42,075 nucleotides of DNA from positions 1-42,075 of the IMG/VR virus record IMGVR_UViG_3300033145_003407. One strand, given 5' to 3'. Below the pieces are notes generated by a model. The model was not told where the DNA came from and ran no database searches. It saw nothing but the letters and a program-made list of their open reading frames with translations. The translations under genes were made by a program, and so were the position numbers. Numbering within the stretch: position 1 is the stretch's first letter; the number at the start of each line of letters is the position of its first letter. The DNA comes from a virus. Shown here in pieces: positions 2,615 through 42,075 of this stretch.

Positions 2615-5536
2615 TTACTCGATTTCTAACAACTTTTTTTTCAATAATTCAGAATGCATATTATTCAAACTAAGATTATTATCAACAATTTGGTTTGATA
2701 AAAAACCACTCGACGTTTTGCAAAACGCATTCTGTTCGTATGCATTCATTATGTAAGCACTTGGAAGCGTTATTGCATCGGTCAATATATTAAGAGATGA
2801 TTGCTTCACTATTTTACCAGAAAAATTAGTATCTCGAAGAACATTTTCATAATTTACGGCAGGTCCAAGCATAGGGTTATCTTTGCCAGCCTTATTAATC
2901 TGCTCGAATATTTTATACATCACTCCGCCACCTATGATAGAACGAAGCCATGGTTTCTTAGTAAATATTTCAGCAAGTTGTTTTGGCCCATATCCATATG
3001 CTTTTAATTTCAAAGCGGCATAAAGAGCAGCCAGCCCGGCAAGAACTGCCGTTTTCGGACCTATTTTAAATTCTTTCTTCTCTTTTTCTATTGGTGGAGG
3101 AAGTTGAGCTGTTTTTTCCATAATCTCTGCCAGCCTTGGTTGCAAAAAGATCGGAAAGCAACTTCTCTTCTCAAGATGTGATATAAAAGCCCGAGCAAGC
3201 GTATCGTCGTAATAGGCATTTGATATATCGATATTTTTCGGCTCAACATCGCTTTTATAATCAAATATCATACTCTCTTTTTCCAATTCATCAGCAAGGG
3301 GCTTATGCCCAACCCGCACCAGAACAATTCTTTGAAACTCATCAGGTTTCGGATGTATACCAAGGCCTAATATAGTAGATAATATCTTATTTAATGGATG
3401 GACTGTCGCCATTGAGTCGAGAAAGCTGTTTGGGAGTTTTGGTTCAGCAGCGATCGTTTTATTCATTTTTTCGTCAAGAGCTTTTCTGAAAACAGAAACG
3501 TTGTCGGCAGGTTTCATTGTACCGTCGATATCATCCTTACCCAAAGCACCGATCTCTTTATCAATATCCCCTTTTTTCTTTACCACAGCAACCTTGTCAA
3601 ACATTTCGTCAGTTACCCCATATGCCTCGGCAAGATCAACAGATGTTATAACCAAACCTGCTGATGCCGCTTTCCCAAGAATAAATGATATCCTATCGGC
3701 ACCTATATATACTCTTGACAAATCAAAAAAACGTGGAAAGTCATTGAATGCGAAAACCATAGTTCCGGGAAGTATAGTCTTTCCAAGCTCTTTGGACCAT
3801 AAGGCGGCAAGTTCAGGGGTGACTATCTGGCCCATGTAATTTTTAAGATGTTTACAATAGGTTTTCCGAGTTTTTGCTTTATTGTCGCAGATACTGCATC
3901 GATCAAACTTTACACGGCAATTGTGGCTAACAAGCCCAGCCGCTATGTATGATTCGTCATCTTCAACTTCAAAGTTATATGTTTGTATATCTACACCATC
4001 TCTAGCATCAATTGATTTTATTGAATAAGAACTTGTGCCATCATCGTTAAGTCGTATTGCTGAATTTCCATTTTTTAATCTGCTTTTTATCACAATGCCA
4101 AGATTTTTTAATTTTCTATTTGAATATGGAATTAACACCTCTGCGTCTATAGAAGATATGTTTAAGGTGTACTCAATAGTATCATGGTTATTAAAACCTG
4201 AACCAGCTTTATGGATAATTTTATAAATTGATGATGGTACTTCGCAGGAATAAAGCAAATCTCTTGCTTGCAAAGCGAGATTAATGTTACATGTCGACCA
4301 ATGTACCCCTTTACTATCACAAAACCCATCTCCACTTAACCATGCGCCAAGAAAGGATAGTTTTATATTTTTATCAGAAACAAACATCTCGGGTGGTATT
4401 TTCTTTTTATGAGATGTCTTATCAAAATATTTCAACATAAAACAGGCTACATCTGTAGAATTTATTATTACATCAAGCGATACTGACGAATTTTTACGAG
4501 GTCTTGTTGAGCAGCTTATATTATCAAATAGCTCACTTACAATGGCTGGAACTTCTCTTGGAAGATCATCATCCATATTACATGTTAATTGAATATTACA
4601 TGGTTTATCACCATTGTATCCAAAACTACCTTCGGCAATATAATAACCCATTAATTTTGCAAATGAAAAATTTTCTATTTTACAAAATTCGTCTTGATTA
4701 TAATGGACTGGAAGGTATTCAACATGGTCGCCTGTTTCTATTTCTTCAGCATCGGCCCAATCGAATTTAACTTTTTCAAACTGCTTTGGGTCTGCATATG
4801 CCCTGTTTTTGGATTCTGAGTCTTTTTTAAACAATTTAACCATCATTGGATGATCTGCGGTTAATTCAAGCGGTAATGATAACCCTCTCATATGTAATTT
4901 ATATAGTTTTCCAGTATATTCCCTTCTGAATGTTTTGGTTACCTTTTTCCAATTTTTTTTATGTGTAAATACGATATCGCCTTTTTTTATATCTTTAATT
5001 GGTTTATACCCATCTATTGTCAGTATTGGATAATCAGGGTCAGTAAGACACCCCATTGATACTGCAACGGGCTCTCCTTTTTCAAGGGCCATTACAATAT
5101 CAGCACCCTTATCCACATCGATTGCGGCTATTATTTCGACACGATGAAGAACCGGGTTCCAATGAGAAAATACTATTTCACCGAATGATTTTTGGGGATC
5201 TTTGTTAACATGATGTTTATAGAATTTTGCATAGTATTCGAAAGTCTTGTAGCCATAATCATCCGCAGTGTTCATGTCAGTGCGCAACGACTTGTGGGAA
5301 AGGCCTATTTCTGGAAATGCATCACCTTTACGATTTGAGCCCCAAACCTCATATGAACCAAGAGCATTAATAACAACATAATACCGTTCCGGCTTCCGAT
5401 TAAGATTAAGAATAACCTTCATCAGTTCCGGAGCATAGTTGCTACTGGCAGTTTTGTTGAGATGTTCAATTGAATTAACCGGTATAATATGTTGACCGGT
5501 GTCATCAATCGAATCGTATGTGATATATTTAATCAT
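2615..5536 (-). CDS. Prohead-protease-like structural fusion protein, interrupted by an intein
   Basis: A 973-residue precursor; removing the intein (residues 163-539) leaves 596 residues. The N-extein holds a S78-like prohead protease pattern: FYKHHVNKDP (His108/109) followed about 50 residues later by VSMG (Ser160), which would be the His and Ser of the catalytic pair. The C-extein opens with a cysteine cluster (C540, C546, C549, C561) that looks zinc-binding, then a long region with KTA motifs (MEKTAQLPP, FCKTSSGFL) and a hydrophobic Ala/Leu stretch (TAVLAGLAALYAAL). HK97-type proteases are about 200-250 residues, so this protein is much longer and probably also structural. The start codon has only a weak upstream site, but the next gene ends two bases before it, suggesting coupling. 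The protease assignment rests on motif spacing and gene order. Confidence 0.6.
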   Translation of the reverse strand: MIKYITYDSIDDTGQHIIPVNSIEHLNKTASSNYAPELMKVILNLNRKPERYYVVINALGSYEVWGSNRKGDAFPEIGLSHKSLRTDMNTADDYGYKTFEYYAKFYKHHVNKDPQKSFGEIVFSHWNPVLHRVEIIAAIDVDKGADIVMALEKGEPVAVSMGCLTDPDYPILTIDGYKPIKDIKKGDIVFTHKKNWKKVTKTFRREYTGKLYKLHMRGLSLPLELTADHPMMVKLFKKDSESKNRAYADPKQFEKVKFDWADAEEIETGDHVEYLPVHYNQDEFCKIENFSFAKLMGYYIAEGSFGYNGDKPCNIQLTCNMDDDLPREVPAIVSELFDNISCSTRPRKNSSVSLDVIINSTDVACFMLKYFDKTSHKKKIPPEMFVSDKNIKLSFLGAWLSGDGFCDSKGVHWSTCNINLALQARDLLYSCEVPSSIYKIIHKAGSGFNNHDTIEYTLNISSIDAEVLIPYSNRKLKNLGIVIKSRLKNGNSAIRLNDDGTSSYSIKSIDARDGVDIQTYNFEVEDDESYIAAGLVSHNCRVKFDRCSICDNKAKTRKTYCKHLKNYMGQIVTPELAALWSKELGKTILPGTMVFAFNDFPRFFDLSRVYIGADRISFILGKAASAGLVITSVDLAEAYGVTDEMFDKVAVVKKKGDIDKEIGALGKDDIDGTMKPADNVSVFRKALDEKMNKTIAAEPKLPNSFLDSMATVHPLNKILSTILGLGIHPKPDEFQRIVLVRVGHKPLADELEKESMIFDYKSDVEPKNIDISNAYYDDTLARAFISHLEKRSCFPIFLQPRLAEIMEKTAQLPPPIEKEKKEFKIGPKTAVLAGLAALYAALKLKAYGYGPKQLAEIFTKKPWLRSIIGGGVMYKIFEQINKAGKDNPMLGPAVNYENVLRDTNFSGKIVKQSSLNILTDAITLPSAYIMNAYEQNAFCKTSSGFLSNQIVDNNLSLNNMHSELLKKKLLEIE
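3920..5050 (-). mobile_element. Intein with LAGLIDADG homing endonuclease domain
   Basis: A 377-residue intein, residues 163-539 of the host precursor. It begins with Cys163 after VSMG and shows an A-block (CLTDPDYPILTIDGYKPI). The B-block is LTADHP, with Thr226 and His229. Two LAGLIDADG helices follow, LMGYYIAEG at 295-303 and FLGAWLSGDG at 395-404. It ends in GLVSHN at Asn539, followed by Cys540 as the +1 residue. All residues expected for splicing are present. The endonuclease repeats keep an acidic residue each (Glu302 and Asp403). The penultimate residue is the usual His. Insertion two residues after the presumed catalytic Ser is typical of inteins, which favour conserved active sites. 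Confidence 0.92.
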
Positions 5537-12499: not shown

Positions 12500-12640
12500 C
12501 ATTCTTTTACAGATAGCTCTGTAAAATTTCTGTGATAATTATGCAAAACATAATAAACAACAGAGCGATTCACGTTTCAACAAAGAGCGCGACGTGGAGC
12601 CGAAGCTCTACGCGGTCTTATCTCTTCTCCACGCACAGAA
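12500..12640 (-). ncRNA. Candidate omega (right-end) RNA of the TnpB element
   Basis: TnpB nucleases use a guide RNA transcribed from the 3' end of tnpB through the right end of the insertion sequence. On the minus strand this stretch overlaps the last codons of tnpB. It contains a stem with a C(UUCG)G tetraloop (12593-12600 with 12605-12612) and then the right-end hairpin at 12505-12526. The guide segment would be the sequence just left of the element. Boundaries are inferred from family knowledge; the stems are seen directly. Confidence 0.4.
12505..12526. repeat. Right-end hairpin of the tnpB insertion sequence
   Basis: A perfect inverted repeat of 9 bases, TTTTACAGA with TCTGTAAAA, around a 4-base loop TAGC. 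It lies 50 bases beyond the tnpB stop codon. IS200/IS605 elements end in subterminal palindromes of this form rather than terminal inverted repeats. The true element end should be within a few tens of bases to the left. Confidence 0.55.
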
Positions 12641-13728
12641 ACCGAGTGTCCCTCGGCCGTATTAATATTCTTTGCTGCATTTTCGTCTCGATCGTGGTGT
12701 GTTCTACATTTGGGACAATCCCATTCACGAATATTGAGTGGCAACTTTTCGACAATATACCCACAAGTAGAACACATTTTGCTGGATGGAAAGAAACGGT
12801 CAATAGTTTTAAGTTCTTTCCCATACCTATCACATTTATAAGTCAACATTGTCCTGAATATATTAAATCCAATATCAGATATTGCACGAGACAGGTAGTG
12901 ATTACCCATCATTCCTCTCACATCCAGATCTTCGATTCCGATAATATCAAATCGACGAACCAGATCTGTAGTGAATTTGTGCAGTATATCAGATCGACTA
13001 TTTCCAACTTTTTCATGCAGCCGTGCAATTTTAATACGTTGCCTTTGCCATCTTCCACTACCTTTTTGCCTTCTTGCAAGAGTTCGTTGCAATCGAGCCA
13101 ATTTGGAAAGATTTTTCCAAAGACATTTTGGATTCGCAATGCGTTCTCCATTGGACAATGTCGCCAATCTACTTATACCAAGATCAACACCAACACCTTT
13201 TCCCGTTTTGGGCAATTTTTTAATGGGCTCATTGAGACAGAGGGTAACATAATATTTCCCAGACGGTTCTTTGGTTATCGTTACCGTAGTGGGAATACTT
13301 TTAAAATTTCTACTCCAACGAATTTTCAAATGACCAATTTTAGAAATAATGATATTCTTATTAATAGCATCCCATTTAAAAGCGCTGGTTGTATATTCTG
13401 CAGATTGTTTATTTTTTTTCTTTTTGAAAACAGGATAACTCCCGCGTTTAGCCCAGAAATTCAAAAAGGCAGTTTGCAGATGACGAAGAGACTGTTGAGT
13501 TGGAACACACGATATTTCAGACAACCATTTTGTCCCCTCTTGTTTTTTCAAAACTGCGAGCATTTTAGATGTGTTGTTATAACTGATTTGTTTTTGTTCA
13601 ACCCTCCAAGCGTCAGATCGTATTTTAAGCGCCCAATTATAGACATAACGGCAACAGCCGAAAACTTTAGCAAGTTTGCAAACTTGAAGATCAGTAGGGT
13701 AAAAACGAAATCGATATCTTATTTTCAC
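12577..13728 (-). CDS. tnpB: TnpB, RNA-guided nuclease of an IS605-type element
   Basis: A 383-residue TnpB starting at GTG 13726-13728 (MKIRYRFRFYPT, the usual family opening). An ATG frame 57 bases further upstream adds residues unlike the family. The RuvC acids are all present: Asp in GVGVDLGIS (residue 182), Glu in IIGIEDLDVRG (266) and Asp in HHDRDENAA (348). A four-Cys zinc knuckle lies between the second and third (CSTCGY and CPKC). Family members are 350-450 residues and act with an omega RNA to cut DNA beside a short target-adjacent motif, helping the element persist. The C-terminus is short and basic. The nuclease looks functional. Confidence 0.88.
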   Translation of the reverse strand: MKIRYRFRFYPTDLQVCKLAKVFGCCRYVYNWALKIRSDAWRVEQKQISYNNTSKMLAVLKKQEGTKWLSEISCVPTQQSLRHLQTAFLNFWAKRGSYPVFKKKKNKQSAEYTTSAFKWDAINKNIIISKIGHLKIRWSRNFKSIPTTVTITKEPSGKYYVTLCLNEPIKKLPKTGKGVGVDLGISRLATLSNGERIANPKCLWKNLSKLARLQRTLARRQKGSGRWQRQRIKIARLHEKVGNSRSDILHKFTTDLVRRFDIIGIEDLDVRGMMGNHYLSRAISDIGFNIFRTMLTYKCDRYGKELKTIDRFFPSSKMCSTCGYIVEKLPLNIREWDCPKCRTHHDRDENAAKNINTAEGHSVSVRGEEIRPRRASAPRRALC

Positions 13729-13844
13729 ACTATTAATATATATAATGTGAAATTTAAGTAAATAATTATCTTTTATAAATAACAAAAATATTTTATATTA
13801 AGTAATAGATTTCATCCTTTTTTTTTCTAATATAAGGAGCTGTT

Positions 13845-14498
13845 ATGAATAAAGAAGCTATAGCTGCCAAAGCCATACTAAAAACACTCGGGAAATACGT
13901 TGCTCCCGCTACCGTTGTTGGTACAGGCGCTGGCATAGTCGGTTATAGGGTTGGTGCCAATAGGATGGGCAATGAGATGGCAACAGCATTCTCAGAAGCA
14001 AATACAAAAGAAAATAAAGCGATTGTCGATTCATTTAAAGCATTCAATAAAAAAGAAAATGCTGTGATTGCAAATCGATTTTTGAGAAAAGGTATCAATG
14101 TTGGATACAATATGGCGACGACAAAGCCGGCAGCACCAACTATGCAAAAAACATCTTCTGAAATAGCCAATGAGGCATTTATCGATGAACTTGAAAAGCT
14201 TGGTTTCGCCATAAAACCATTGGTGAGCCTTGGTATGAAAGGCGTCAAAGCGCTTCGTACTCAATTTTCCAGTCTCGGCAAAGGGTTAAAAGCAGCTGGC
14301 AGCTCGGCAATTGCTGGTATTAAAAGTCCTGCTGGTATGAGGTCAACACATTTTGGACTGGCCCGCGACCGTGCTTTAAGTGCAGCTAAGACAAGCCCGT
14401 ATGCCGCCAGTCTGGCTGGTGGTGCTGGTGCTCTTGGTACTGGATATGCTTTTGGTAAATCGAAGCCAAAAAGAACCATTGTAGATTATCGTTATTAA
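13845..14498 (+). CDS. Hypothetical membrane-like virion protein with FIDELEKLG motif
   Basis: A 217-residue protein with the site AAGGAGC before ATG 13845. The N-terminal 45 residues hold a hydrophobic glycine-rich segment (TVVGTGAGIVGYRVGA). The middle carries MQKTSSEIANEAFIDELEKL (about residues 101-120), closely matching the shared F-x-x-ELEKI motif, and the C-terminal half is Gly/Ala/Ser-rich with another possible span (ASLAGGAGALGTGYAFG). Though on the plus strand, its composition is that of the minus-strand virion proteins. It is probably co-transcribed with the next gene, one base away. Confidence 0.55.
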   Translation: MNKEAIAAKAILKTLGKYVAPATVVGTGAGIVGYRVGANRMGNEMATAFSEANTKENKAIVDSFKAFNKKENAVIANRFLRKGINVGYNMATTKPAAPTMQKTSSEIANEAFIDELEKLGFAIKPLVSLGMKGVKALRTQFSSLGKGLKAAGSSAIAGIKSPAGMRSTHFGLARDRALSAAKTSPYAASLAGGAGALGTGYAFGKSKPKRTIVDYRY

Positions 14499-14833: not shown

Positions 14834-14862
14834 GGGCCGGTTTATGATCGGCCCATCTTTTT
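14834..14862 (+). terminator. Rho-independent terminator between two plus-strand operons
   Basis: GGGCCG (14834-14839) pairs with CGGCCC (14849-14854) around a 9-base loop and is followed by ATC and a run of seven T. It separates the small virion-type genes from the DHH/reverse-transcriptase operon, whose first ATG lies about 25 bases further on. That operon therefore needs either read-through or a promoter overlapping this short gap. Confidence 0.7.
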
Positions 14863-14885
14863 TATTTATAACTCAAGGAGTATCA

Positions 14886-16004
14886 ATGCACGAAAAACGG
14901 TTTCATATTTTCTTTCATGATGATATTGATGGAATTGTTTCAGCAGCAATGGTTCTGACTTCATTTGTCAGAAAGCATTCGTACAGACTTTACCCGGTAA
15001 AGTCAGCAATAAGAGGTGATAAATTTAACAAACTCATTGAGAAAGTAGAAGGCGGGGACAATAATACAATAATTATTGTCGATTACCAATTTAACGAGCG
15101 CGCCCATATATGGGTAGATCACCATTTTGATAAAGATTTGGGAAACCATGTCGTAAAGAACGGAAAGCTTTTTTACGATCCAAATGCCAAATCTGCAGCC
15201 AGAGTTATTTACAATTGGTTTCAGGACGATCCAATATTGAAAGGCACAATAAACCCAGCTATTATTACCATGGTCGATTTAATTGATAGTGCTGGTTATG
15301 CGTCTGTTGATTACGTGTTTTCAAGCCTTGAGCCATTGATGATATTGAAAGCATATATTGAACGTCTTTCAGTATTTGTGGACTCAACGTTTTCAAGGCT
15401 GGTTGAGCTAATCAGCTTATACAATTTCGATATTAACAAAGTCCTGTTTACCCTTGGTGTTGATTATCATATCATACACGACCTGAAACAATCAGCAGAA
15501 TCAATTGAGAAGGTTATGGTGATTAATGGTTGTATGGGTGTCACTGAAATGAATAGACTTTATGCCTATCCTCGGTATGCTGAATTTTTTGTAAGACCTG
15601 ATGTAAAATACTGTGTAAGAATTATTAATCTTGGTGGCGAAAGAATTCATATTGATATTGGATATAATTCATGGCATGTGAAGCCTAATCATCTTCATAT
15701 CGGCAAAATGCTTGGTGCACTTGATTATCCAATCAGTGGTGGAGGCCACCCGGGAGTTGGGGGCGCTATTATACATGAATCAGACCTTGAAAGATTTATT
15801 GATGATGCTTGTGTACAAATAAATGGTCCGGAGGACAGTGTAGATATGGAAAAATATGCAGTTGATAAAACCGATCCAATCGAAGAAAAAGCCGATGAAA
15901 TGGTTAAAACTGGTCAAGCTGAAAGCAAAGATAAGGCCAGGGAAGAAGCTGTAAAAAAAGAGGAAGGAGGTAAGCCGGAAGATGTTCAAGGCACCGATAT
16001 TTAA
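14886..16004 (+). CDS. DHH-family phosphoesterase
   Basis: A 372-residue protein from ATG 14886, chosen because AAGGAG lies 6 bases upstream; the frame extends further up without a site. DHH motifs are complete: HDDIDGIVSA (motif I, residues 11-20), IIVDYQF (II), VDHHFD (III) and MVDLIDSAG (IV). A C-terminal DHHA1-like glycine loop, SGGGHPGVGGAI, follows. The last 45 residues are a charged, probably disordered tail. Relatives include RecJ, nanoRNases (NrnA) and cyclic-dinucleotide phosphodiesterases, which hydrolyse phosphodiester bonds with two metal ions. Its 3' end overlaps the reverse-transcriptase gene by 23 bases, so the two are coupled. Substrate cannot be told from sequence; short nucleic acids or a cyclic dinucleotide are options. 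Confidence 0.8.
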   Translation: MHEKRFHIFFHDDIDGIVSAAMVLTSFVRKHSYRLYPVKSAIRGDKFNKLIEKVEGGDNNTIIIVDYQFNERAHIWVDHHFDKDLGNHVVKNGKLFYDPNAKSAARVIYNWFQDDPILKGTINPAIITMVDLIDSAGYASVDYVFSSLEPLMILKAYIERLSVFVDSTFSRLVELISLYNFDINKVLFTLGVDYHIIHDLKQSAESIEKVMVINGCMGVTEMNRLYAYPRYAEFFVRPDVKYCVRIINLGGERIHIDIGYNSWHVKPNHLHIGKMLGALDYPISGGGHPGVGGAIIHESDLERFIDDACVQINGPEDSVDMEKYAVDKTDPIEEKADEMVKTGQAESKDKAREEAVKKEEGGKPEDVQGTDI

Positions 16005-17034
16005 CTTTGAGATGAAAAAAGTTTTAGGTGCTGACCTAGAAGAGGTGGACGAAATACTCGCCGATAAACAAAATCACATTGAGCGAATAACCGTTCCGAA
16101 GAAAAATGGTGGCAAAAGGAATATCATAGCTCCAGACCCACGACTGAAATACATTCAGAAAAGTATTTACTGGCGTGTCTTCAGAAGATATAGGCCCGAC
16201 CCATCAGCACATGGATTTATTGCTAAAAAGGGTATCGTAACAAATGCAGAGCCGCATGTTGGAGCTGCATCTATGGGAAAGATTGATATTAAAGATTTCT
16301 TTGATTCAATATCAATTGACCATTTAAAAAATTGCATTTTTGGAAATAAGCATGTATGTCGATACTGCAAAAATTATGAACGGATGCTTGACGGGAGGTG
16401 TAATCCCTCACTATATCACAATAAAGTTGAAGATTATGATTTTAAATGTGAAGAGATAAAAGCAGTACATATACCTGAGTACTGTGAAGAGACTGGATAC
16501 ATGTCTCTGTTTAATAGAATAATAGACTTGTGCACTTTTGAGGGATATACTGCACAGGGCTTCCCTACTTCGCCAATGCTGGCGAATATAGTAATGCGAG
16601 GATTCGATCGGTCAATGTCTGAATATAGTCTCAGCAATGATATAGTGTACACCCGATACGCAGACGATCTTGCATTCAGCAGTAATAAATTGACAAAATT
16701 TGAATTAAAACAAAAAATAAAGCGCAAAGCTTACCAATTATTATGGGCATATGGATTTGCACCAAATAAAAAAAAGACCATATGGAAATCAAACGCCGGT
16801 CGTCTCAAGATTTGCGGTGTAGTGGTTAATGTTAAAAAGTCAGTGCAGCGTAGTGATGTCCACCGGTTTAGAGCTCAGGTGCACCATGCTACGGTTAAGC
16901 ATGCAGACAAAACAACCAAGGGTGATTTGAGAAAATTAAAAGGGTGGGCATCATTTTTGATGTCTATAGATCGTGATAAAGGGAAAAAGTATATGAATCA
17001 GCTTCTTGTGTTTGAACAACAAAAATTCAATTAA
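15982..17034 (+). CDS. Retron-type reverse transcriptase with cysteine-rich insertion
   Basis: A 350-residue reverse transcriptase starting at ATG 15982 behind AAGGAGG. Retron-like features: VPKKNGGKRNIIAPDPRLK (38-56), AHGFIAKKGIVTNAEPHVG (76-94, with the N-A-x-x-H pattern), KIDIKDFFDSIS (Asp102), QGFPTSPMLANIV (motif B) and YTRYADDLAFSS (catalytic Y226-ADD). KICGVVVN follows where retrons usually have V-T-G. Between motifs A and B lies an unusual insertion, about residues 118-172, with Cys126, 129, 140, 156 and 168, which may bind zinc. No msr-msd is apparent upstream, because the DHH gene abuts. An RNase HI gene follows immediately. It could be a divergent retron, a defence RT or a new class. 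Confidence 0.88.
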   Translation: MFKAPIFNFEMKKVLGADLEEVDEILADKQNHIERITVPKKNGGKRNIIAPDPRLKYIQKSIYWRVFRRYRPDPSAHGFIAKKGIVTNAEPHVGAASMGKIDIKDFFDSISIDHLKNCIFGNKHVCRYCKNYERMLDGRCNPSLYHNKVEDYDFKCEEIKAVHIPEYCEETGYMSLFNRIIDLCTFEGYTAQGFPTSPMLANIVMRGFDRSMSEYSLSNDIVYTRYADDLAFSSNKLTKFELKQKIKRKAYQLLWAYGFAPNKKKTIWKSNAGRLKICGVVVNVKKSVQRSDVHRFRAQVHHATVKHADKTTKGDLRKLKGWASFLMSIDRDKGKKYMNQLLVFEQQKFN

Positions 17035-17055: not shown

Positions 17056-17544
17056 GTGGAATTCACAATATACACAGATGGGGGTTGTTCAGGAAATCAA
17101 AGGGGTGCTAATTGTCCAGGTGGTTATGGTTATGTAATAATCGACGCTGGCAACAATATATTGCAACGAGGAGGAGGCCACAGAACTAATGTAACTAACA
17201 ATCAAATGGAATTATTGGCAGTTATTCAAGGAATGAGGACATTAAAAAAGCTTTTAGACTCTGAGTACGATGGTGCCAAAAACCATTCCTGTGTTATAAG
17301 GCCTGATTCAAAGTATGTGTCAGACAATTATGATGAATACCTTCCTGTATGGAGAAGTAATGGATGGAGAAAGTCTAATGGAAAATTTGTTATCAATGTT
17401 CCGTTGTGGAAAATGTTGGATGCTTTAACCCCCGATTTTAAAGCATTCTGTTTTAAGTGGGTCAAGGGGCACGCCAGAAGCAAATTTAACAATATGGCAG
17501 ATGGCATAGCTCAAGATCAAATTAAAGCAGCCAAGGCTCGTTAA
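17056..17544 (+). CDS. rnhA: Ribonuclease HI
   Basis: A 162-residue RNase HI starting at GTG 17056, with AAGGA upstream. All active-site residues can be placed: Asp8 in YTDGG, Glu52 in NNQMELLAV, Asp84 in RPDSKYV, His139 in VKGHARS and Asp149 in NMADGIA. Bacterial RNase HI is about 155 residues, so it is full length. It degrades the RNA strand of RNA-DNA hybrids. Position 21 bases after the reverse transcriptase suggests it trims the RNA template of the cDNA made by that enzyme, a step retrons usually take from the host. Removal of replication primers is the ordinary alternative. Confidence 0.9.
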   Translation: MEFTIYTDGGCSGNQRGANCPGGYGYVIIDAGNNILQRGGGHRTNVTNNQMELLAVIQGMRTLKKLLDSEYDGAKNHSCVIRPDSKYVSDNYDEYLPVWRSNGWRKSNGKFVINVPLWKMLDALTPDFKAFCFKWVKGHARSKFNNMADGIAQDQIKAAKAR

Positions 17545-17742: not shown

Positions 17743-17754
17743 CCGCCATGAAAG

Positions 17755-18014
17755 GAGAGATTAATCTCTCATCTGAAATGGTTCGTTTTGGAGGGCTTAA
17801 TAATTAGGGTAGCGAATTTTATCTGTTCATTCCAGAGCTGGAACGACAGATAAAAATCTATCAATTTACCCGCCTGGTCATAGATCACCAATGCGCGCCA
17901 TTGGCGATCTGTGCGGGCCAGGCTTGGTGAGAACCCGCCTGGCCCCCGACCCCAGTCCGGTTCTGTTTCATGGCTAGGTTAATTGGAAGCTCTCACCGAC
18001 CTGGGAGTTTTTTT
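17755..18014 (+). ncRNA. Structured noncoding region with alternative folds after the reverse-transcriptase operon
   Basis: About 260 bases without a credible gene. Stems seen: GAGAGA-TTAA-TCTCTC (17755-17770); a 10-base stem TTTTATCTGT (17817-17826) with ACAGATAAAA (17846-17855) capped by TTCCAG/CTGGAA; and GCCTGG (17872) with CCAGGC (17918) enclosing AGATC/GATCT and CCAATG/CATTGG. Competing with the last is GGGCCAGGC (17915-17923) with GCCTGGCCC (17937-17945). GGTGAGA (17926-17932) pairs with TCTCACC (17991-17997), which competes with the terminator stem. This may be the RNA partner of the reverse transcriptase or an attenuator. Which, if either, is unknown. Confidence 0.5.
17990..18014 (+). 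terminator. Rho-independent terminator of the reverse-transcriptase operon
   Basis: CTCTCA (17990-17995) pairs with TGGGAG (18002-18007, one T-G wobble) around a 6-base loop and is followed by seven T. The left arm can instead pair with GGTGAGA at 17926-17932, which would act as an antiterminator. Confidence 0.6.
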
Positions 18015-20631: not shown

Positions 20632-20912
20632 TATGGTTCCCTGGAAATTTTGCTCAAAGGAATATATATAAGATTTCCAACCGGCCCACCAGCAGGAGGG
20701 CATATACCTGCAGCGAAAGCTAACTGGACACCAGAATCTGACAAAGCTTTTGCTATACCATATGCGATAGCATGTGCCATTGCCTTTGCCCCATCTTCCG
20801 GGGTAACGTCGGTATCGTTTTCCATAGCCTTTGCGTTGTCAACAAGGAATTTTTCAACATCACCAACTATTGATTTACCAAGAACTGATTTAGTCATTCT
20901 AATTATTGACAT
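20631..20912 (-). CDS. Small protein of a tandem paralog pair (copy 1)
   Basis: About 93 residues from ATG 20910-20912 (MSIIRMTKSVLGKSIVGDVE). It aligns with the downstream copy over its full length: Ala-rich helix MAHAIAYGIAKALSD, then LAFAAGICPPAGGPVGNLIY. The two genes overlap at one base, which indicates tandem duplication and coupled translation. It is the first gene of the leftward run; the gap 20913-21081 holds the divergent start region with the plus-strand gene at 21082. Virion role is inferred from context. Confidence 0.55.
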   Translation of the reverse strand: MSIIRMTKSVLGKSIVGDVEKFLVDNAKAMENDTDVTPEDGAKAMAHAIAYGIAKALSDSGVQLAFAAGICPPAGGPVGNLIYIPLSKISREP

Positions 20913-39303: not shown

Positions 39304-40377
39304 GTGTTGATTAAGGGATTAACCCATGATGAAAAAGGGGTTCTCAACGCTGTTGAAAAATATAGAGGTAAGATTTCTACAGGCTATGCTCCTAATGAAG
39401 GCCCGAATAAGAGAGATTATCCTATAGCTGCTGGCTTTTTCAGAATGTTGAAAGAAGTCACCACAACCGAACGGGTAGGAAATTCTGAAACACCCGTTAC
39501 AATAAAAAGTTGGATTTTGAATGAAGAAATTCAGACTGCATTAGAAAAGACTCTTGATAATAAAATACCTCGCAGGATAGAGCTGGTAAGCTTTTATAAA
39601 ACACCTCAAGAAATGTGGGAAAGTTGCTTGGCAATGTTTTCATCGACTGACGGCCTATTATGTAAAAGCCATGGTCTAAATCAGAACGCAAGACAATTAA
39701 CATTTTCACCGGATGGTGATCGCATATGGATTGATAGATTGTTTGACGGAAAAAAAGGGTGTCTATATCATGATTGTCCTGATTTCAAGACAAAGAAGTG
39801 CAAACCTATGGGTAGTATGAAATGCTTTCCTGTAATAGATTTAACACCTAATCCATATAGACTTGAGACCCGTTCAATAAATACTATTATGGGGATCGAA
39901 TCATCATTTGCAAAATTATGGAATTTACTTAATGTAGCACATGCTATTAAAGAACAAGAGGTCAAAAAAACTCTTAAGTTCGATGGTTTTTTTGGAGCAA
40001 AACTATATCTTGTTCATAAGAAAATAAAATCAGGCGGTAGAGACGTGTTCATTACAGATTTGTTACCAACACCATCGTTTATAGATGAGGTTATGGAACC
40101 GGTCAAAAGGGGATTGAACATGAAGCAAAAGCAGGCGAAGGTAGAAGCTACGCCTGAAAACTTATCGCTATTGGAATTGGCAGAGAGCTCTCTGCTCGGC
40201 ACAACTGTTAATAATGACACGGCTGAAGAGCCTGTCCCATTGGAATTGGAAGATCAACAGCATGTTGCAAAAGAATTCGGTGCCGATGCGGCAAAAGAAG
40301 AATCTCAGGAAATGTCAAAAGAGACTCAAAATGAAGTAGCAGAAACGCTACTGAATAATAATGATAAAGAAAACTAA
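39304..40377 (+). CDS. Gp3-like / recombination-directionality-factor-like protein
   Basis: About 357 residues. The frame opens with GTG 39304, but AAGGAGG ends only two bases before it; TTG 39307 is better spaced, so the start is uncertain. Recognisable pieces are ISTGYAPNEGPNKRDYPIAA, a Cys cluster (KKGCLYHDCPDFKTKKCKP) and YRLETRSINTIMGIESSFAK. I associate the order 'P-r--pi-agfFR ... C--dCPd---kkCkp-G ... T-Sintim' with the Gp3-like phage family. The last 75 residues are acidic. In a lytic-looking replication cluster its role may be DNA binding or recombination rather than excision. It is the last gene before the noncoding region. Confidence 0.5.
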   Translation: MLIKGLTHDEKGVLNAVEKYRGKISTGYAPNEGPNKRDYPIAAGFFRMLKEVTTTERVGNSETPVTIKSWILNEEIQTALEKTLDNKIPRRIELVSFYKTPQEMWESCLAMFSSTDGLLCKSHGLNQNARQLTFSPDGDRIWIDRLFDGKKGCLYHDCPDFKTKKCKPMGSMKCFPVIDLTPNPYRLETRSINTIMGIESSFAKLWNLLNVAHAIKEQEVKKTLKFDGFFGAKLYLVHKKIKSGGRDVFITDLLPTPSFIDEVMEPVKRGLNMKQKQAKVEATPENLSLLELAESSLLGTTVNNDTAEEPVPLELEDQQHVAKEFGADAAKEESQEMSKETQNEVAETLLNNNDKEN

Positions 40378-40395
40378 TTAAAGTACAAGTGTATT

Positions 40396-40412
40396 ACCGG
40401 CGTTTCGCCGGT
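40396..40412. repeat. GC-rich hairpin after the Gp3-like gene
   Basis: ACCGGCG and CGCCGGT form a perfect 7-base stem with a 3-base loop, 19 bases beyond the stop at 40377. Only a broken T-run follows, so it is a weak terminator candidate. Its loop region reads GTTTCG, repeated in two later hairpins of the noncoding region. Confidence 0.6.
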
Positions 40413-40432
40413 GTGACAGAATTTTATAGGAC

Positions 40433-41351
40433 GACCAGATGGACGGTACGCCGGGGGATGAGGTCAACGAGATCCGATGGCCGAACTTGCCGGACTCCGT
40501 CCGAAACCGTACGTCCGGCAAGATCTCCCATCGGATCTCGATGATCTCATCGGGGACGCGTACCTATCTGGTCTACGTTAATTCTTTCATGTTCAAAATC
40601 ACCCGGGACACCTTCCAAGGGACTTGGAATCTCACCCGGGAGATTGGTAACATTCAGAATTTTCAATCTTTAGTTGTACTTTAATACGTAAATAAAAAGC
40701 ATGAGAGCTTTACACCTGATGTTTCGTCAGGGTATGCTTCACCTAAAAGCTGCGCACCCTATGGAGTTGGCCGATCCGAAAGAAGCTGGATCTGAAACTC
40801 CTAGTGTAACCTCAGCTGCGCTCCGGTGACCCGAGGATTTTCAGATCCAGCTTTTTTCGGATCTCACCAACTCCTTGTGTGATCTATTTTAGTCATGCTT
40901 AAGCGGAGGGGCAGCCTTGCTGCTTCTTTCGCTTTTAATAAAGTTATAATAACGCAAGTTGCTTAATCGCAGTGTTTCGCTGCGGCCTTATTTTAAGGTG
41001 CCGGGCGCATACGGAAGACGTTACAGGACCGTTCCACGACTCGTGGATTGACCTATGCCGGTCACTCAACGATTCGTTTCAGGTCCGCGTTCCACTTTTT
41101 CCTCCTGCGCCCGGTGGTGCTTTGCTGGGGAAAGTTTAATGCAAAGCACTCAATTTAGTTACGTTATGATGTCCCATTTTTTTTAAATACAATTTAATAT
41201 ATAAGAGTTATGAGTGACGATTCGTCATTCGGTTAATTTAAAAAGTCCTAAAACTTGATGGCGATAGCCGGCTATCTGCCTCGGGGTGGACCATCTTGCA
41301 TGGGCAAGACGGGCCAACCCCAGGCGCCTAGCTCGGCTTACGCCACAAGTT
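40433..41351. ncRNA. Very large ornate structured RNA candidate
   Basis: About 920 bases packed with long stems and no credible gene. Seen: a rod at 40433-40573 (8, 6, 10, 13 and 10 base-pair blocks); 40602-40640; 40697-40739; a second rod at 40763-40874 with an 8-base block and a 25-base stem holding one wobble; 40901-40934; 40968-40984; 40986-40998; and a multibranch domain closed by CCGGGCGCA (41001) with TGCGCCCGG (41106). Then come GTGCTTTGC/GCAAAGCAC (41117-41149), 41212-41230, and a junction at 41252-41351 closed by AACTTG/CAAGTT and TGGCG/CGCCA. The scale recalls GOLLD and ROOL RNAs of phages, but I cannot identify the class or the strand with certainty. Confidence 0.7.
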
Positions 41352-41431
41352 CTTACCAAATTCAATTTTAGTTATATATCAAATTGCATTAACTTATGGA
41401 GCTTAAAGCAGATAACTGAAAAGTTATAAAT

Positions 41432-41452
41432 TCTTATAAAAAATTTATAAGA
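41432..41452. repeat. Left-end hairpin of the IscB element
   Basis: TCTTATAAA and TTTATAAGA form a perfect 9-base stem with loop AAA. Position just before the omega RNA of iscB fits the subterminal palindrome of an IS200/IS605-type left end. It marks the likely border between the ornate RNA region and the inserted element. Confidence 0.5.
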
Positions 41453-41622
41453 GAAAGCTTCGAGGATAAGACGGTAACTAAGCCCACTGCTTGGGTGAAC
41501 TATCCGTCTACGTCAGCCAATAATAGGACGTTGGAATGTGTCCAGTTCCAAATAATCCGTTGGCGACATTTCCGAGGACAACAATGACAGGGAAACCTGC
41601 TAACCCTTAAATGGGAATTTAT
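41453..41622 (+). ncRNA. HEARO / omega RNA of iscB
   Basis: About 170 bases immediately upstream of iscB with the stems expected for a HEARO RNA: AGACGG (41469-41474) with CCGTCT (41504-41509), inner CCCA with TGGG, then GCCAA (41516-41520) with TTGGC (41560-41564) enclosing TTGGAA (41531) and TTCCAA (41546). The 3' part reads GACATTTCCGAGGACAACAA then TGACAGGGAAACCTG, which I recall as typical of this RNA class near the ORF start. HEARO RNAs guide IscB to its target through a segment at their 5' end. The 5' boundary is inferred from the left-end hairpin. Confidence 0.75.
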
Positions 41623-42075
41623 ATGAAAATATTTGTAATTGACAGTGAAGGAAAACCTTGTTTGCCTACAAGCCCAAGGAGGGCAAGAAAACTACTTGAT
41701 AGTGGAAAGGCGACTGTAAAACAGGTAGTCCCATTTACTATCAAACTCAAAAGAAAAGTAGATAATCCTGTCGGCTCTTTTGAAGTTGGGGTGGATGACG
41801 GAGCAAAGTATGTTGGAATTGCTATTAAAAATTCTGTTACTAGCGAAATTGTCTTCTATGGGTGCTTAAACCACAGGCAGGATGTAGGCAGGAAGGTTGA
41901 AGAGAGAAGGAATTATCGGAGAGCCAGAAGGTTTAGGTTGAGAAACCGTAAGCCTCGCTTCTGCAATAGAATTAAAAATAAGATTTCACCAAGTATTAGA
42001 CAGAGAAAAGAGGCTATTATTAGGGTGATTAAAGATATGGCTAAAAAATTAAATATTATAAAAATTACTGTAGAA
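41623..42075 (+). CDS. iscB: IscB RNA-guided nuclease, N-terminal part (cut by window edge)
   Basis: A frame of 151 codons from ATG 41623 to the window end; an in-frame ATG at 41611 is possible. The PLMP domain is clear (FVIDSEGKPCLPTSPRRARK, then VPFTIKLKRKV). RuvC-I follows as EVGVDDGAKYVGIAI with Asp58, and an Arg-rich bridge helix spans about residues 88-112 (RKVEERRNYRRARRFRLRNR). In the family an HNH domain and RuvC-II/III come next, outside this window. IscB is the ancestor of Cas9 and cuts DNA guided by the upstream omega RNA. The visible part shows no defect. Confidence 0.88.
   Translation, partial: MKIFVIDSEGKPCLPTSPRRARKLLDSGKATVKQVVPFTIKLKRKVDNPVGSFEVGVDDGAKYVGIAIKNSVTSEIVFYGCLNHRQDVGRKVEERRNYRRARRFRLRNRKPRFCNRIKNKISPSIRQRKEAIIRVIKDMAKKLNIIKITVE

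Follow-up and report, generated by a model that had tools for sequence, protein, structure and literature searches.

What kind of element is a stretch of about 1 kb that lies between two phage genes, is rich in stems and carries no gene of its own? The question is raised by a fragment, 42,075 bases in length, from an uncultivated virus; it encodes a phage terminase, and this whole stretch of analysed DNA is called the window below. The region lies between the gene of a Gp3-like protein (39304-40377), which resembles recombination directionality factors according to Pfam, and a truncated IscB gene (41611 to the end of the window). It holds no plausible gene, the single ORF of 81 aa being located within the palindrome of the unit called A below, in agreement with a first-pass annotation in which the region was described as gene-free. 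The same annotation proposed a noncoding RNA of unknown class, similar to giant phage RNAs such as GOLLD and ROOL. The class can now be named, as the plan of the region is that of a retron msr-msd and a retron-type reverse transcriptase (RT) is predicted in the same genome. Quite probably, the region consists of four template units of the retron msr-msd type, which lie in tandem and are copied by the phage RT into branched msDNAs.

Folding and anatomy of the array

The fold of positions 40390-41370 has a minimum free energy (MFE) of -436 kcal/mol, as compared with -285.9 ± 7.5 kcal/mol for 20 dinucleotide shuffles (z = -20), and the stems are found where the first-pass annotation had placed them. 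The extent of 40433-41351 given at that time covers a feature that is present but larger (40377-41386, + strand), because closing stems and small hairpins fall outside this start and end. The whole array of the window folds with -441 kcal/mol, and the array is modular since its four units, when folded singly, together already give -413 kcal/mol (94 % local). A single transcript folded from all stems, as first suggested, thus gives way to four tandem, self-contained units, and such a unit also occurs on its own at other places in related genomes. Of the 32 array units whose G-U count differs between the strands, 26 have more G-U pairs when folded on the predicted (+) strand and 6 on the other (sign test p = 5e-4), as expected for RNA on the + strand. 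Together with an architecture that relatives retain with rods of different sequence, this bears out the earlier idea of selection on an RNA fold and supports the conclusion that the array is noncoding, phage-borne and selected as RNA on the + strand. A promoter scan of the array gave no signal above chance.

All units, each on the + strand, follow one plan: the ends a1 and a2 pair as a closing stem, a1 is immediately followed by a G, and then come a hairpin of 7 bp with a loop of 3 bases (UUU in most cases), a long rod whose sequence varies, and UUUAG before a2. Unit A (40377-40685) has a perfect and flush closing stem of 12 bp, made by a1 at 40377-40388 (ATTAAAGTACAA) and a2 at 40674-40685 (TTGTACTTTAAT), the latter preceded by UUUAG. 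The candidate priming G is located at 40389 and the msr-type hairpin at 40396-40412 (ACCGGCG-UUU-CGCCGGU). Two rods follow, of which the first (about 40433-40573) is the 141-base rod noted earlier and the second spans about 40587-40653. Pair probabilities of 0.8-1.0 were obtained for unit A within the full transcript, and orthologues are present in G001, G005 and other related contigs.

Unit B (40697-40900) consists of a1 (40697-40704), G 40705, a hairpin at 40715-40731 (CCUGAUG-UUU-CGUCAGG), the 112-nt rod of the first-pass annotation (40763-40874), UUUUAG and a2 (40893-40900). The arms of its rod, 44 nt each, are 84 % complementary. As compared with G001 and G005, the two nearest relatives, the first 38-40 nt of the unit are identical and the rods have diverged. 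The covariation that might have been expected among related phages was only partly seen: the unit B rods of three phages have 25 pairs in common, 23 of them invariant and 2 with compensatory changes, which is weak, and the other rods are too diverged to be aligned. Covariation in the rods is weak because they have mostly been replaced outright between phages.

The two multibranch domains described earlier turned out to be the branched msd parts of units C and D. In unit C (40951-41165), a1 (40951-40957, AACGCAA) is followed by G 40958, a hairpin at 40968-40984, the branched msd (41000-41115), a further hairpin at about 41116-41150, UUUAG and a2 (41159-41165, TTACGTT). Its closing stem contains one A-C mismatch in the window, is weak and is not predicted to form; the corresponding stem of 8 bp is perfect in G001 and G003. 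Unit D (41197-41379) carries a1 at 41197-41204 (ATATATAA), G 41205, a hairpin at 41213-41229 with the loop AUU, a branched msd at about 41258-41351, and UUUUAG before a2 (41372-41379). The orthologue of unit D in G005 has a closing stem of 14 bp. For units A, B and D, high probabilities were calculated for the closing stems and hairpins within the full transcript.

A fifth unit, C2, is present in G001 (63589-63825) and G005 (114470-114657) and is absent from the window at about 40901-40950, between units B and C. It appears to be missing cleanly at its a1/a2 ends, which hints that whole units may be gained or lost.

Directly after unit D, an IscB gene with an upstream HEARO-like RNA (41398-42075 together) is cut by the contig end. 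Part of it, 41398-41587, matches the HEARO model RF02033 with 19.6 bits, which is under the gathering score of 83, and the IscB ORF is adjacent; the weak match belongs to the IscB gene and not to the array. The IscB/HEARO-like element is not found at the corresponding place in G001 or G005. A second family of RNA-guided nucleases is represented in the same phage by a TnpB-like protein (12577-13785, - strand) with OrfB_IS605 and Cas12f1-like TNB domains. Elsewhere in the window, a protein of 973 aa (2615-5536, - strand) contains intein-like splicing and LAGLIDADG domains according to weak Pfam hits.

Units in related phages and tests against chance

Relatives of the window were first found via the Gp3-like protein, independently of the idea of an RNA, which yielded seven contigs of up to 208 kb. 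The Gp3-like gene is followed by a stem-rich, gene-free stretch in all seven, and the RT is present in six, the seventh being an 81-kb fragment. The closing stem, the G after its 5' strand, the 7-bp triloop hairpin and a U-rich stretch that usually ends in AG before the 3' strand are constant across the relatives. The long rods differ from phage to phage and the ends are conserved between units.

Curation gave 8 units in G006, 7 each in G001 and G005, 6 in G012 and 5 in G018; shorter or more distant contigs carry fewer, and most contigs have an RT-linked RNA (see below) in addition. The units occur in arrays, in some genomes with a second cluster elsewhere, and also singly. Over 45 units, hand-picked on the boundary consensus from the results of the descriptor scan and the flank test described below, this consensus reads AA|G and UUUAG|UU, the junction letters being largely imposed by the search and the remaining letters free. 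An A followed by G is present in 45 of 45 units, largely as imposed by the search, and the next base is rarely C. On the - strand of G019 (48382-49677), an array of at least four units has hairpins such as GAGUUUCUC and AAUC before a2. As the RT of this contig is only 39 % identical and G019 has an array of its own, the arrays are perhaps older than the clade.

The descriptor scan used to collect units is partly circular, and hairpins were therefore also picked solely on the hairpin sequence (7 bp, G-NUU-C), before the flanks were tested. A flush a1|G...G|a2 stem of at least 7 Watson-Crick pairs flanks 41 of 110 such hairpins, about sixfold more than the 6.4 expected from shuffled flanks; for at least 8 pairs, the numbers are 30 of 110 and 2.2. 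The first descriptor, in which UAG was required, matched Markov sequence 12-14 times per 906 kb (matches were counted, not inspected), and controls with reversed sequence and unrelated phages were added for this reason. The raw matches numbered 133 on the real strands and 42 on the reversed ones; not all of the 133 are real, as many overlap or fall in coding sequence. Reversal preserves palindromes and loses the order of the parts. No consensus unit was seen on inspection by eye of the reversed sequence and of two unrelated large phage contigs.

The reverse transcriptase cassette and its linked RNA

About 24 kb from the array, three genes and an RNA are arranged in a row on the + strand. The RT (15982-17034) carries the motifs QGFPTSP, YTRYADDLAFS and KICGVVVN. 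Its gene is overlapped on the upstream side by that of a DHH-family protein (14844-16004; Pfam DHH 3.7e-5, just under the curated cut-off) and is directly followed by that of an RNase HI-like protein (17056-17544; Pfam RNase_H 1.4e-24). The DHH and RNase H genes are syntenic in all relatives. In all 19 RT-bearing contigs examined, the DHH-RT-RNase H cassette is located close to TerL, and the RT identity falls as low as 39 %; these contigs include the near-duplicates G002/G003, G011/G012 and G013/G014/G017.

The RT matches the PADLOC models RT_XIII (2e-63) and RT_III-A (8e-60) and, below its cut-off, the NCBIfam model retron_St85_RT (1.6e-59). Its best PDB relatives by sequence are retron RTs, Ec86 being the nearest solved one, and the top 18 matches in a fold search were all retron RTs (model pLDDT 81, TM about 0.5-0.6). 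Judged by retron HMMs, PDB sequence search and predicted fold, the phage enzyme is classified as a retron-type RT. At the start of region Y, ICG replaces VTG, with C and G conserved in the clade; this position varies within retrons, since two validated retrons also depart from VTG (PMC6868368). A Cys-rich insert spans residues 126-168, in which C126, C129, C140 and C156 are invariant in 15 relatives; it was not seen in the alignment with Ec86 and is possibly a zinc site, judging from these residues. A diversity-generating retroelement was considered and rejected on the RT motif QGFPTSP, the retron models coming first, and the absence of copies of the rods elsewhere in the window.

Retron RTs normally depend on the host RNase H1 (PMC8989520), and an RNase H of the phage beside its RT makes sense for this reason. 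Unlike in defence retrons, no toxic effector was recognised near the RT, which is flanked by the DHH protein and the RNase H. No homologous DNA was found in cultured phages, where relatives of the RT occur only at about 30 % identity or less, and no close relatives of the RT were confirmed in the bacterial genomes searched.

The RNase H gene is directly followed, in the window (17748-17984, + strand) as well as in relatives, by a retron-like RNA consisting of a1, G, a hairpin GGAGAG..CUCUC, a 7-bp triloop hairpin, rods, the conserved block GCCUGGCCCCCGACCCCAGUCNGGUUCUG, and a2. RNAalifold, applied to an alignment of this RNA from 10 phages, recovered the a1/a2 stem, the GGAGAG/CUCUC hairpin and the triloop hairpin of 7-8 bp, with compensatory changes in 21 of 33 consensus pairs. 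It is likely the ordinary retron ncRNA of the system. A second, partial copy is found about 1.3 kb 3' of the first in G017 (20686-20726) and G014 (13845-13898).

The 7-bp triloop hairpin is common to the RT-linked RNA and the array units. The former has two msr hairpins and the latter one, as the units are without the first msr hairpin and also without the conserved 3' block. The middle base of the loop is A in both kinds of hairpin in G012 and G007 and U elsewhere, with G015 as the exception; this match across 11 genomes is suggestive (Fisher p about 0.05, calculated by hand).

Proposed copying of the units and comparison with known systems

We infer that the units are transcribed, reverse transcribed and branched. 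Transcription would proceed along the + strand, probably as read-through of the Gp3-like gene upstream, and each unit would close via its own a1/a2 stem. The small triloop hairpin would serve as the recognition site of the phage RT, which would be primed at the G after a1 and would copy the rod from the UUUAG beside a2 onwards; the phage RNase H would remove the template. In this way, templates located about 24 kb from the RT gene would likely yield a set of distinct branched DNA-RNA hairpins (msDNAs), all made by one RT, in addition to the one copied from the RT-linked RNA. The single msr hairpin of each array unit, the broken stem of unit C and the two rods of unit A speak against such copying, as do the AAGN motif at the priming site, the ICG triplet of the RT, the weak covariation of the rods and the lack of a recognised toxic effector near the RT.

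In another reading, only the RT-linked RNA is copied and the array units, although derived from retrons, no longer serve the RT or do so only as RNA, being decoys that bind the RT or another protein. In favour of such decoys are the degenerate unit C of the window and the absence from the units of both the first msr hairpin and the 3' block that is conserved in the RT-linked RNA. We regard this reading as improbable: the flush a1/G/a2 geometry and the UUUAG boundary have been kept across deep divergence, and they count against decoys because they matter for priming and not for binding alone. Very improbable is a single giant structured RNA of a new, GOLLD/ROOL-like class that forms one folded particle. 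The very strong folding over about 1 kb, the intergenic position and the phage origin all suit it, but the energy is 94 % local to the four units, no Rfam giant-RNA model matches, and units occur singly or in other numbers elsewhere, as exemplified by the C2 of G001 and G005 that the window is missing. Palindromic elements selected as DNA, such as mobile hairpin cassettes or recombination sites, would explain the long near-perfect inverted repeats that vary in position and number and fold on either strand, but are hardly credible given the G-U excess on one strand (26 versus 6 units), the asymmetric order of the parts, not seen in controls with reversed sequence, and the fact that no matching integrase or target site was seen.

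If the units are copied as proposed, the purpose of the msDNAs can be addressed only tentatively. One retron RT might be supplied with a natural set of distinct templates, up to about nine in number, the resulting msDNA panel, with hairpins quickly exchanged between lineages, being a phage-made counter-defence or DNA-sensing library; we hold this to be possible, though on the doubtful side. As to a specific role, we favour, with low confidence, that the msDNAs occupy or divert host nucleases, single-stranded DNA-binding protein (SSB) or DNA-sensing defences during infection. Contact between msDNA and SSB is at least plausible, since the msDNA of Eco8 is reported to sense phage SSB (PMC13158370). 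A role of the rods as editing donors in the phage was also considered: no rod of the window matches elsewhere in these genomes, which argues against editing templates, and the sole copy found was the partial RT-linked RNA in G017/G014.

Among known systems, GOLLD, ROOL and OLE are likewise large, structured, intergenic RNAs and partly phage-borne, but the phage array is modular and made of repeated units. Their Rfam covariance models gave no match at the gathering threshold or at E <= 10, and no family fitted in an Rfam scan of the array region even at a loose threshold, the HEARO match further downstream being the only weak one of relevance. The HEARO-like RNA before the IscB gene is a separate element next to the array and is absent there in array-bearing relatives.

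Retrons are best known from bacteria, as anti-phage defences with a single template. In the lineage of large phages described here, the retron machinery forms a conserved cassette that includes an RNase H, and many templates appear to be fed to it. In the published msr-msd plan, complementary ends of 8-30 nt, stopping directly before the priming G, flank a short msr hairpin and a long msd one, and region Y of the Eco1 RT binds an msr stem of 8 bp that is capped by a UUU loop (PMC6868368). The array units and the RT-linked RNA have, as in retrons, complementary ends directly before the putative priming G, the stem being weak in unit C of the window. With retrons such as Eco1/Ec86 and those with St85-like RTs, the phage system shares a retron-type RT, a1/a2, the G after a1, the UUU-loop msr hairpin and the long msd hairpin. 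It differs from them as a phage-lineage cassette that also encodes an RNase H and a DHH protein, and in having one RT for many templates. Most of these are distant from the RT, and it is the RT-linked RNA that lies in the cassette, as is usual for a retron ncRNA. Further differences are AAGN instead of the usual priming motif AGC/(T)AGC, ICG instead of VTG, the Cys-rich insert of the RT and the lack of a known effector. Priming sites vary in published retrons as well, CAGA and ACGC being examples (PMC6868368).

A literature search, with subscription journals mostly outside its coverage, revealed no natural phage retron arrays. The literature searched describes no multi-template retron that is conserved, phage-borne and equipped with its own RNase H, and it holds one precedent for duplicated msr-msd sequences: Retron-Nex1 (Ne160) of Nannocystis exedens has several duplicated msr-msd repeats and no RT within a kilobase (PMC6868368). 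Retron-Nex1 is bacterial and its repeats were described as apparent duplicates, whereas the phage units have differing rods, occupy one locus across phages and have a candidate RT in the same genome.

One virus thus probably makes several different DNA-RNA hybrid molecules, which for phages is not described in the literature searched. If confirmed, this would be a natural multi-template retron, and what phages gain from msDNA would become a question. It would also provide RTs that work on arrays of the kind that genome-editing groups build by hand. In engineered retron arrays for genome editing, several msr-msd templates are likewise served by one RT; those arrays are man-made, whereas the phage array is natural.
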